From contig NZ_AP018929.1 in assembly GCF_008326425.1 (NCBI RefSeq), positions 2,370,875 through 2,434,874 on the forward strand: DNA of 64,000 bases. Direction: 5' to 3'. Made by a program: the position numbers and the translations under genes. Under the pieces are notes generated by a model that was given only the letters and a program-made list of their open reading frames with translations, was not told the origin of the DNA and ran no database searches. Shown one piece after another: positions 35,679-58,209 of the stretch. How positions within the stretch are numbered: position 1 is the stretch's first letter; the number at the start of each line of letters is the position of its first letter. This DNA is from Sulfuracidifex tepidarius (lineage in GTDB: Archaea; Thermoproteota; Thermoprotei_A; Sulfolobales; Sulfolobaceae).

Positions 35679-36545
35679 TTAGATTATATCAATTTCTTTT
35701 ACTTTAGGTAAAATCGACTTCTCCTCAGCTAGCTTGTAGAAGGTTTCTAGGCCTCTCTTAACCTGATCTATGGGCACGTTATACTCTTGAATGTCAGCCC
35801 AGATGGTCTTCTTAACTATCTCCTCTTCCAGGTCAGCTCCTTGGGCCTCTCTCATTATCCTGACGTCCTTAGGTATTATCTCCTCCAAATGAGATTCGGC
35901 ATATTTCTTGCTTTTCTCATAAGTCTCTTTGAACTTCAATGCTAATTCCTTTCCTAAATCCTTGTTTATAACTACCATACCCATCGGCATAGGAGACCCG
36001 TTAGAGATGTTCTTCCACATGTCCCACATGCTCGTTATCGGCTTGGCGTTAATCCCTAACTTCTTCATCGCATACATCATTTTTATTTCATGAACAGCAA
36101 CCAAAACATCTCCGTCCTTCCCTAGTGCCTTCATTTCGTCCAGAACACGACGAACTATCACTAGTTTCCCGTATCTCCCGACAAGCATCTTGTAGAGAGT
36201 GAACGCTGTAGTGTTTGGCCCGTGGACTATCAGTCTAGCCTTAGGTAGCTCGTCTTGTTTAATATCTGAAGTTGATAGGACTGGCATTCCTGTAATTCCG
36301 TCTATCGCTGAGGCCACAGCGTTTCCCATTATATAAAAGTAGTCCTGTATGTAAGGATACATTGCAGCTGAAGGTACTGAAACATCGACTTCTCTTTTTA
36401 AGACTAGTTCGTTTATGTCTTGGACTGTGGGAATGACTTCGAACTCTAAGTTAAAACCATCTGGTTTAACTTTTCCCTCCATTAATGGTATGAAAGGATA
36501 CAAATCTCCCGAGTCTGCTAGAGCACCAACTTTTATTGTTACCAT
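35679..36545 (-). CDS. MqnA/MqnD-family protein (futalosine-pathway-like)
   Basis: A 288-residue protein with the periplasmic-binding-protein fold but no signal peptide. It resembles MqnD, 1,4-dihydroxy-6-naphthoate synthase: REVDVSVPSAAMYPYIQDYF, then VAVHEIKMMYAMKKLGI with the catalytic-type His, a MWDMWKN segment and MPMGMVVINKDL, all in the MqnD order. MqnD works in menaquinone synthesis from futalosine. Sulfolobales make sulfur-containing caldariellaquinone, so the substrate here may be a quinone precursor that is not yet defined. An alternative is an unrelated NMT1/THI5-like ligand-binding protein. Confidence 0.65.
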   Translation of the reverse strand: MVTIKVGALADSGDLYPFIPLMEGKVKPDGFNLEFEVIPTVQDINELVLKREVDVSVPSAAMYPYIQDYFYIMGNAVASAIDGITGMPVLSTSDIKQDELPKARLIVHGPNTTAFTLYKMLVGRYGKLVIVRRVLDEMKALGKDGDVLVAVHEIKMMYAMKKLGINAKPITSMWDMWKNISNGSPMPMGMVVINKDLGKELALKFKETYEKSKKYAESHLEEIIPKDVRIMREAQGADLEEEIVKKTIWADIQEYNVPIDQVKRGLETFYKLAEEKSILPKVKEIDII

Positions 36546-37087: not shown

Positions 37088-38233
37088 ATGAAAGTTCTGA
37101 TTCTGGGAGCCGGATATGGAGGGCTCACCGTAGCTCACAGATTGAAAGAATACCTAGGAGAGGATATCGAGATAACAGTCGTTTCTAAGAGTAGGTCAAT
37201 CTATGAGAACACTATATTTCCAGCTATTCTTACTAATGACGTTAAGGTAGAGGATACCGTATTCGACGGACTTGAAGTAATGAGACGAAAAGGAAACCTC
37301 TTCGTCGAGGCAGAAGTGAAAGACGTTAATCTGCAGTCAAAGGAAGTGAAGACGAGTAAGGGGACATTCGATTACGATTATCTCGTTTTAGCTTTAGGAG
37401 GAGGATATGAAGAGAATTTCAATAAGATAAGCGGGCATGAACACGCTTTCATGCACCATCCATTATCAGACTTCTTAAAAATAAAAGAGAAACTCGCTTC
37501 TATGGATGAAATAAACGCAGTGATAGGAAACTATACGGGGAGCCCGATAGAAGGTCCTTCTTATCAACTAGCCCTGATCGTCAGGAACGAAATCAACAGG
37601 AGGGGCATTAAAGGAAAGGTTACCTTAGTTACACAGAGCCCCAATGGTGTCTTCGGTATGTTACCCGTTAAGGAAATATCAGAGAGAGCCAATAGACTCT
37701 TCGAGGAAAACGGGATAGAGTTGGTGAAGGGTGACTCAATCGTTGAGGTTAGAAAAGATAAGGTGGTTACAAGGAACGGAAAAGAGATAGGCTCCAATTT
37801 CGTCTCCATCCTACCCAAACTTTCTGTACCATCACTACTGAGGGAAACTTCGATAGTAAACGAAAGAGGTTATGTAGAGGTAGAGTTTCCCTCATTTAGG
37901 ACTAAGAGGTTCCACGATGTTTTTGCCATAGGAGATCTAGCCGAAGGTATGATACCAGCTAGAACAGCTAGAGGAGCCATGATTGCTGGGGAGAACGTTT
38001 CCTCTACACTGGCTAAAGAAATCAAGGGAGTAGAAAAGCCTCTCTACAAACAAGGAATAATATGCATGTTCCATGGAGGAGAAGTAGCCGGAATGCTCAG
38101 GTTTGACGTCAAAGATAAGCCTCATGTGAGCCTCTTAGTTAACCCTGTTTTCAGTAAGCTAAAAATTATGTATAGCAGAATGTTAGTTGCCACAGGATTT
38201 AACGTACCTTATCACGCTGCACCTTTCTTTTAA
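37088..38233 (+). CDS. NDH-2/sulfide:quinone oxidoreductase-like flavoprotein
   Basis: A 381-residue FAD protein. It opens with LILGAGYGGLTVAHRL, has a second region YDYLVLALGGGYEENF, and FAIGDLAEGM near residue 280 contacts FAD. The cysteine pair used by sulfide:quinone oxidoreductases is missing: the position equivalent to the first Cys reads EGPSYQLA. This favours a type II NADH dehydrogenase-like or other quinone reductase. The C-terminus NPVFSKLKIMYSRM is amphipathic and may dock on the membrane. Likely co-transcribed with the DUF84 gene 12 bp upstream. Confidence 0.78.
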   Translation: MKVLILGAGYGGLTVAHRLKEYLGEDIEITVVSKSRSIYENTIFPAILTNDVKVEDTVFDGLEVMRRKGNLFVEAEVKDVNLQSKEVKTSKGTFDYDYLVLALGGGYEENFNKISGHEHAFMHHPLSDFLKIKEKLASMDEINAVIGNYTGSPIEGPSYQLALIVRNEINRRGIKGKVTLVTQSPNGVFGMLPVKEISERANRLFEENGIELVKGDSIVEVRKDKVVTRNGKEIGSNFVSILPKLSVPSLLRETSIVNERGYVEVEFPSFRTKRFHDVFAIGDLAEGMIPARTARGAMIAGENVSSTLAKEIKGVEKPLYKQGIICMFHGGEVAGMLRFDVKDKPHVSLLVNPVFSKLKIMYSRMLVATGFNVPYHAAPFF

Positions 38234-57012: not shown

Positions 57013-57549
57013 TTAGAAAGCTCCTCCCGCTACTTTCCTTGCGCTGTCAGCTATATCCTTCTCTTGAGCTGCATATGCACACAGCATTGCCTCTACGTCT
57101 GCATGTCCCTCAGCTTTAGCTGCCATTGCAACTCTGTTGTACTCGTCTGTGTGTGCCTTGTCTTCTGTTACTGCGAACTTTCCTAGGAGAGCTGTGACTT
57201 TCCTTGCGCTGTCAGCTATATCCTTCTCTTGAGCTGCATATGCACACAGCATTGCCTCTACGTCTGCATGTCCCTCAGCTTTAGCTGCCATTGCAACTCT
57301 GTTGTACTCGTCTGTGTGTGCCTTGTCTTCTGTTACTGCGAACTTTCCTAGGAGAGCTGTGACTTTCCTTGCGCTGTCAGCTATATCCTTCTCTTGAGCT
57401 GCATATGCACACAGCATTGCCTCTACGTCTGCATGTCCCTCAGCTTTAGCTGCCATTGCAACTCTGTTGTACTCGTCTGTGTGTGCCTTGTCTTCTGTTA
57501 CTGCGAACTTTCCTAGAAGTTCGGTTACTTTCTGAGTTTCGGATACCAT
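57013..57549 (-). CDS. Triple-repeat rubrerythrin-like protein
   Basis: A 178-residue protein built of three 55-residue units that are nearly identical in protein and DNA. Each unit runs from LLGKFAVTEDKAH through DEYNRVAMAAKAEGHADVEAML to CAYAAQEKDIADSARK. This closely tracks the first helix pair of rubrerythrin (LLKAFAGESQAR, then Y-x-x-x-A-x-x-A-K-x-EG and A-x-x-E-x-x-H-A), but the metal-binding His of ExxH is Ile (EKDI) here. Each unit has one Cys and two His. No signal peptide. A strong TATA box supports the start. Function is unknown; a metal- or redox-related scaffold is inference. Confidence 0.75.
   Translation of the reverse strand: MVSETQKVTELLGKFAVTEDKAHTDEYNRVAMAAKAEGHADVEAMLCAYAAQEKDIADSARKVTALLGKFAVTEDKAHTDEYNRVAMAAKAEGHADVEAMLCAYAAQEKDIADSARKVTALLGKFAVTEDKAHTDEYNRVAMAAKAEGHADVEAMLCAYAAQEKDIADSARKVAGGAF
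57032..57516. repeat. Tandem array of a 165-bp unit, three copies
   Basis: Copies begin at 57032, 57197 and 57362. By eye the first two and the third (to 57516) are identical at every base, including silent positions, and the period is a whole number of codons (55). This points to very recent amplification or ongoing homogenisation, and copy number may vary between strains. Confidence 0.9.
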
Positions 57550-57777: not shown

Positions 57778-58209
57778 ATGCAGTTAGGTCCTAAGACTGA
57801 AATGGGATTGAAGGAACTGTTCATAGCAAATTCAGAAGATCATTTTCTCTTGAAGTTATCGTCTCAGAAGTTGAGTGAAGCAGGGAAAACGGAGGAATCT
57901 AAGATAATAGGAGACAAATCTATGACTGAGTTCAGGCACGCGAGGGGCATATTCGAAAAACTAAATTCTTACTTGGGAGAGGAGAAACTTCTAGAATGGT
58001 TAAAAGAAATTGAATCTATGAAGGAAGACAATCATAGAGACATTTTCGTAAAGTATTCCACAATATACATGCTTTCGTCTTTCCTGTCTGAGAAGAAAGT
58101 AGCCGACGAGATTAAATTATCTCTTAAAGAAAAGGCCAATTCATGTATACCTAAGATAAGTGACTCATATGAAAAAATATTAAATGACCCCAATGTCAGT
58201 TTAGAGTAA
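57778..58209 (+). CDS. Ferritin-like (rubrerythrin-type) helical protein
   Basis: A 143-residue all-helical protein. Helix 1 holds IANSEDHFLLKLSSQKL; helix 2 carries an ExxH pattern, MTEFRHARGIFEKL (about 50-63); a later helix has MKEDNHRDIF with a second ExxH (about 81-90). Paired carboxylate and His residues on a four-helix bundle are the di-iron pattern of rubrerythrin and related proteins. No rubredoxin domain is fused. It is divergent from the triple-repeat gene, 228 bp apart. The fold call is from pattern only. Confidence 0.6.
   Translation: MQLGPKTEMGLKELFIANSEDHFLLKLSSQKLSEAGKTEESKIIGDKSMTEFRHARGIFEKLNSYLGEEKLLEWLKEIESMKEDNHRDIFVKYSTIYMLSSFLSEKKVADEIKLSLKEKANSCIPKISDSYEKILNDPNVSLE

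Follow-up and report, generated by a model that had tools for sequence, protein, structure and literature searches.

The 64,000-nucleotide stretch of Sulfuracidifex tepidarius DNA analysed here (the window) carries a gene, designated mqnX, whose product is an enzyme of the MqnA/MqnD family (PF02621) and represents a third clade of this family. Together with a UbiA-family prenyltransferase (UbiAx) and a flavoprotein-like protein (FlavX), MqnX probably belongs to the uncharacterised pathway of benzothiophene-quinone (caldariellaquinone) synthesis; the reaction of MqnX is inferred. Membership in this pathway is likewise an inference, drawn from distribution, predicted fold and sequence, and these three proteins are the strongest candidates to date. 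Aerobic respiration in Sulfolobales uses caldariellaquinone as its electron carrier.

The mqnX gene and its surroundings

The gene, and the motifs of its product referred to below, are located in the window as follows:

35679-36545, (-) strand: mqnX, coding for an MqnA/MqnD-family (PF02621) enzyme of the third clade; 288 aa, ATG start, the sole gene of its transcription unit
36504-36518, (-) strand: ADSGD (residues 10-14), the signature of MqnX where canonical MqnD has PDPDD; D11 and D14 are common to both; present in 41/41 MqnX rows
36204-36224, (-) strand: HGPNTTA, residues 108-114; T112 is aligned to T106 of TTHA1568, and H108 takes the place of the MqnD proline
36087-36095, (-) strand: VHE, residues 151-153; H152 is aligned to H145 of TTHA1568
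35979-35993, (-) strand: PMPMG, residues 185-189, aligned to PLPLG of MqnD

The mqnX gene is real. Its product matches the PF02621 profile (VitK2_biosynth) over positions 1-252 of 252 (E 5.6e-53, 180.4 bits, cut-off 26). This was the sole profile reported at E 0.001, with no ABC substrate-binding profile matched, and the NCBIfam models gave no match at E 0.01. In addition, six motif patterns recur in 40 or 41 of the 41 distinct MqnX sequences, and hence the motifs are conserved far beyond chance. No other PF02621 gene is found in the whole 2.56 Mb genome from which the window was taken (the window genome).

The first-pass annotation placed quinone-linked flavoprotein genes just downstream of mqnX. 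Flavoprotein genes do exist nearby, but the nearer of them (37088-38233, Pyr_redox_2) lies on the opposite strand to mqnX, past a divergent NTPase gene located 30 bp from mqnX, and is conserved near mqnX in only one of 16 related loci. A functional tie of mqnX to its window neighbours was rejected, given that the NTPase gene is kept in four of the 16 loci, the flavoprotein gene in one, and that mqnX itself stands alone and divergent. The informative flavoprotein, FlavX, and the prenyltransferase UbiAx are encoded 0.7 Mb from mqnX in the window genome, and in none of the neighbourhoods examined does MqnX adjoin them.

Two rubrerythrin-like genes were recognised by eye in the window at 57013-57549 (-) and 57778-58209 (+), the former containing 2.9 perfect copies of a 165-base repeat. 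Rubrerythrin-like relatives adjoin mqnX in up to six of the 16 related loci, in both phyla; the window pair lies 20 kb off. In Thermoplasmata loci including L150, L061 and L066, mqnX diverges from two genes, one for a carbon-nitrogen hydrolase and one of 80 aa, and both a radical SAM gene and a MEMO1-like gene (the latter identified by eye) are found near mqnX in these three and others of those loci. An AMMECR1-like gene, also identified by eye, is located near mqnX in L150 and L061.

Residues, predicted fold and position in the family

The MqnD motif order ascribed to this protein in the first-pass annotation was borne out by alignment with TTHA1568 and AF1704, in which D14, N45, S59, T112, the HE pair at 152-153, W177 and PxPxG at 185-189 of MqnX follow one another. 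H152 occupies the alignment position of TTHA1568 H145, a correspondence that holds in every MqnX and MqnD row, and D14, N45, S59, T112, W177, P185, P187 and G189 of MqnX are also common with MqnD; in the numbering of TTHA1568 (PDB 2CZL), the residues kept are D14, N43, S57, T106, H145, W166, P173, P175 and G177. We take His145 to be the proposed catalytic base of TTHA1568, the pocket of which is presumably lined by Asn43, Ser57, Thr107 and Tyr234. The two proteins differ, however, in that they share only 19% identity and show swaps at D38, E40, P102, D161 and Y234 of TTHA1568. At four MqnD-conserved positions the replacing residue is invariant in MqnX (D38 by T40, E40 by Q42, P102 by H108 and Y234 by D251), as would be expected, on the evidence of the alignment, for a new substrate.

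In its AlphaFold2 model (pLDDT 91.3), MqnX has the fold of MqnD, its best structural match being MqnD 2czl (Z 32.2, 268 residues, 2.0 Å), followed by AF1704 (Z 30.3) and MqnA (24.8), with no binding protein above 23.4. Among PDB sequences the closest to MqnX is AF1704 (Archaeoglobus fulgidus, PDB 1ZBM; 64 bits); unlike MqnX, it scores 230 bits against a canonical archaeal MqnD and sits among the MqnD rows in the tree. The chorismate dehydratase MqnA (SCO4506, PDB 7AHR, 2NXO) shares both Pfam family and fold with MqnX (Z about 24-25), but has Gly where MqnX and MqnD carry His.

The periplasmic-binding-protein fold is common to SsuA, TauA, Thi5 and the thiamin-pyrimidine binding proteins, and MqnX might accordingly be a non-catalytic cytoplasmic ligand-binding protein or regulator built on it. 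Such a role is nevertheless very doubtful: the Z scores of MqnD and AF1704 stand well above those of the binding proteins, the active-site residues are invariant over the 41 MqnX rows, inspection by eye shows no signal peptide, the N-terminus (MVTIKVG) leading straight into the first strand, and the nine mqnX neighbours scanned include no transporter component except one cation-efflux protein. Loss of the catalytic positions together with closer similarity to ABC binding proteins, which would have refuted the original annotation, was not seen, as the His and pocket residues are kept and the best structural match is MqnD.

The position of MqnX in the family was taken from a tree of 112 rows, built by a quick method, in which the deep joins between MqnD groups are weak. 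The 41 MqnX rows form one clade (SH-aLRT 100) on a long stem of 3.07 changes per site, the join of which to the MqnD rows is unresolved. Thermoplasmata rows constitute one clade inside MqnX (support 99), and the MqnA rows form a clade of their own (support 98). Against TTHA1568, MqnX scores 41 bits compared with 148 bits for canonical Thermoplasmatales MqnD. Because of the separate clade and this difference in score, MqnX and MqnD are not orthologues, and, as far as can be judged from sequence, it would be wrong to give MqnX the name MqnD.

Both archaeal groups also contain a small additional PF02621 clade (126-132 bits) that is separate from MqnA, MqnD and MqnX (L145, L146, L147 and L148, from G237, G274, G241 and G066, respectively).

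Distribution of MqnX, UbiAx and FlavX

Exactly one PF02621 copy was detected in 30 of the 31 Sulfolobaceae genomes, and MqnX is also present in the Sulfolobus acidocaldarius control genome. The exception, G001 (1.5 Mb, 93% complete), lacks MqnX and carries UbiAx and a fragment of FlavX that contains an in-frame stop; its gap possibly reflects either missing sequence or a decaying pathway. Class-wide, some PF02621 match was found in 57/229 genomes. Genomes outside the Sulfolobaceae with a strong match (224-271 bits) have canonical MqnD, and in many of them a second, weaker match (about 29-64 bits) was interpreted as MqnA. The annotation had called for a genome search for the other futalosine genes. 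Neither the window genome nor any of the 31 Sulfolobaceae has a second PF02621 gene that could be MqnA, and MqnC/MqnE-type radical SAM proteins at E 1e-30 are absent from all 31 (all three menaquinone-type relatives have them). MqnE is missing from the window genome, where the best score of its model was 19.8 bits against a cut-off of 434.55. The COX1 terminal-oxidase subunit is encoded in 31/31 Sulfolobaceae genomes.

A scan with the two most conserved MqnX motifs over 84,980 prokaryote species (one genome per species, with records near the window genome possibly omitted) yielded 16 loci, 59-94% identical, from Sulfolobaceae, Acidiplasma aeolicum, Ferroplasma acidarmanus and Thermoplasmata MAGs; one of these loci, L057, matches the Sulfolobaceae genome G022 in sequence. 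Of the eight Thermoplasmata genomes searched from among those behind the scan loci, five possess three PF02621 genes, scoring 221-227 bits (MqnD), 73-77 bits (MqnA) and 151-161 bits (MqnX), and three have MqnX alone. In the order Thermoplasmatales, MqnX was found in 12 of the 117 genomes, seven times beside MqnA and MqnD and five times alone; MqnC/MqnE-type matches occur in all seven of the former and in none of the latter. Since MqnX coexists with the full MqnA/C/D/E set in seven genomes, it has another job. G325 was considered as a carrier of decayed MqnX and rejected; its broken 159-bit match is canonical MqnD with stops, and this genome was therefore counted as MqnX-negative.

These distributions bear on the possibility that MqnX is, after all, a genuine MqnD (1,4-dihydroxy-6-naphthoate synthase) serving a menaquinone route whose other enzymes are unrecognised. 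The full-length PF02621 match, the retained His and pocket residues and the structural match to MqnD agree with it, but it can scarcely be maintained in the face of the missing MqnA, the absence of MqnC/MqnE-type proteins from every Sulfolobaceae genome, the presence of canonical MqnD in seven MqnX genomes, the low score against TTHA1568 and the replacement of MqnD-conserved D38, E40, P102 and Y234 by invariant T, Q, H and D.

MqnX as an enzyme distinct from MqnD can be followed in the Thermoplasmatales genome G323, which has MqnX and is devoid of MqnA and MqnD. A Ferroplasma MqnA query found no match in it; one of the two radical SAM partners of Ferroplasma had none either, the other scored 36 bits, and the best match to MqnD was MqnX itself. 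About 0.06 Mb of G323 lay outside the sequence read; the PF02621 and MqnC/MqnE-type searches spanned the whole genome. G323 encodes CydA-like proteins 75% and 57% identical to the Ferroplasma gene taken as CydA by eye, and a COX1-like protein as well. With oxidases present and futalosine genes absent, it should depend on a quinone produced by a different route.

Companions of MqnX were sought by comparing G323 with 520 kb of the Sulfolobaceae genome G006 plus the window. When the 318 reciprocal best hits were ranked by identity, UbiAx came second (67%) and MqnX fourth (62%), the first and third being IlvB-like and IlvC-like proteins (by eye); the median identity over the 313 hits aligned for at least 80 residues was 35.9%. 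The FlavX gene lies beside UbiAx in both compared genomes. In the window genome the two are located as follows:

C1:1704614-1705507: UbiAx, UbiA-family prenyltransferase (PF01040), 134.6 bits, cut-off 34.2
C1:1705779-1706663: FlavX, flavoprotein-like, weak Pyr_redox_2 match

Eighth among the 318 hits was a Pyr_redox_2 protein similar to sulfide:quinone reductase or NDH-2 (G006:C1:207305-208534 and G323:C1:406525-407760, 59% identical), which may have travelled with the quinone.

Co-occurrence was assessed in a panel of 80 chosen genomes, comprising all 31 Sulfolobaceae, 46 of the 117 Thermoplasmatales (all 12 MqnX-positive and 34 of the 105 MqnX-negative ones) and three menaquinone-type genomes of the window's order. 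UbiAx is present in 30/31 Sulfolobaceae (59-66% identity), in 12/12 MqnX-positive Thermoplasmatales (76-100%) and in 0/34 MqnX-negative ones, where the best matches are 26-32% identical or absent. The Sulfolobaceae genome without UbiAx is G026 (71% complete); MqnX and UbiAx are thus each found in 30 of the 31 genomes of this family, and both in 29. A profile search for FlavX (E 1e-12) gave 30/31 Sulfolobaceae, 12/12 MqnX-positive and 0/34 MqnX-negative Thermoplasmatales, and 0/3 menaquinone-type relatives. The distance between UbiAx and FlavX is no more than 0.5 kb in 9/12 Thermoplasmatales and 17/30 Sulfolobaceae. Across the two phyla FlavX shares just 34% identity, which is near background. 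Fisher's test of 12/0 versus 0/33 (G325 not yet among the negatives) gave p 3.5e-11 with kinship ignored; because the genomes are related, this value is not a count of independent events. Moreover, the MqnX and the UbiAx sequences of Thermoplasmatales each fall into a single clade, and the 12-versus-0 pattern may for this reason reflect one or a few transfers.

In G006, UbiAx (L238, C1:169064-169956) is split into two pieces in different frames, which is either a real lesion or an assembly error.

The window genome has three UbiA-family genes (the UbiA gene profile, applied over 19 genomes, was usable for counting only). The other two presumably have the expected roles in ether-lipid (DGGGP synthase) and haem O synthesis, and this makes UbiAx the natural candidate for the quinone prenyltransferase. 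UbiAx keeps the Asp-rich motif NDNLADRxID of UbiA-family quinone prenyltransferases (PF01040), whereas the best UbiA-family match in the three menaquinone-type genomes of the same order is just 33-35% identical to it.

Ferroplasma and Acidiplasma hold the module beside a menaquinone pathway, and the product of the module is unknown, so that MqnX, UbiAx and FlavX could conceivably make some other prenylated aromatic compound or cofactor instead of a respiratory quinone. This seems rather unlikely, as nearly all Sulfolobaceae have the module and no genes have been assigned to their quinone; that quinone is expected to be made by some UbiA-family enzyme, with UbiAx the only unassigned one of the three; and the five genomes with MqnX alone keep the module without futalosine genes, the oxidase-bearing G323 being among them.

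A short protein, 209-213 aa where complete, is encoded beside FlavX in L276:3590-3892, L274:455-1096 and seven more Sulfolobaceae sequences. Its N-terminal part is similar to MqnX (P 2e-5 and probability 77% by profile comparison; 1.4e-4 against MqnD), and it seems to lack the His motif. The structure model of this protein had a pLDDT of 56.4. It is possibly a decayed or a partner paralogue of MqnX.

A putative route to benzothiophene quinones

Under the favoured reading, in which the three proteins act in quinone synthesis, MqnX would be a cytoplasmic MqnA/MqnD-family enzyme that has departed from menaquinone synthesis. Its step would most likely be a general acid-base elimination or aromatisation, with His152 as the base and a pocket of Asn45, Ser59 and Thr112 holding a carboxylate, and would build the head group of the Sulfolobales benzothiophene quinones (caldariellaquinone, sulfolobusquinone). 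UbiAx would then prenylate this MqnX-derived head group, and FlavX may set a ring oxidation state. The order of these steps is inferred, as is the need for MqnX in caldariellaquinone synthesis. The labelling work of Zhou and White in 1989 reportedly traced the caldariellaquinone ring system to tyrosine; this origin offers no obvious MqnA- or MqnD-type step, and the exact reaction of MqnX therefore remains open. The module would have passed between Sulfolobaceae and acidophilic Thermoplasmatales; in five genomes of the latter it stands alone, without the futalosine pathway.

The initial guess of an enzyme belonging to an undescribed quinone route is thus supported, in that the remainder of the futalosine pathway is absent and that a prenyltransferase and a flavoprotein share the distribution of MqnX, with no chemistry demonstrated. 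A more far-reaching proposal may just as well prove wrong as right. It regards MqnX as an MqnD-derived head-group lyase, UbiAx as a dedicated prenyltransferase and FlavX as a ring oxidoreductase, the three being the core thiophene-quinone enzymes. The module would have moved horizontally between Sulfolobales and Ferroplasma-type archaea, the latter then making benzothiophene quinones, and menaquinone would have been replaced in at least five Thermoplasmatales genomes. Against the favoured reading of a quinone pathway stand the full menaquinone pathway kept in the seven other MqnX-positive genomes, the Sulfolobaceae genome G001 without MqnX, the near-background identity of FlavX, the absence of MqnX from the neighbourhoods of UbiAx and FlavX among those examined, and the chance that a single transfer explains the co-occurrence.

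In the literature searched, neither a report of benzothiophene quinones nor any quinone data were found for Ferroplasma or Acidiplasma, the essential-gene literature offered nothing useful, and no title or abstract listed from the open-licence literature names the MqnX, UbiAx or FlavX genes. A Thermoplasmatales paper on Oxyplasma reports menaquinone, for Cuniculiplasma too (PMC11349054); membership of either in our panel is unestablished. Zhi et al. 2014 counted all 11 Sulfolobales genomes as lacking complete MK and UQ pathways (PMC3914697). Ravcheev and Thiele made the general prediction that such quinone pathways should hold homologues of older quinone-pathway enzymes (PMC4746308), and the biosynthesis of caldariellaquinone and sulfolobusquinone is still called uncharacterised in a 2026 paper (PMC13386864).

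If the proposed pathway is correct, three named genes would provide an entry to caldariellaquinone synthesis. It would also mean that a quinone pathway can cross from one archaeal phylum to another and supplant menaquinone, and that the Pfam label "Menaquinone biosynthesis" conceals a third function of the MqnA/MqnD family.
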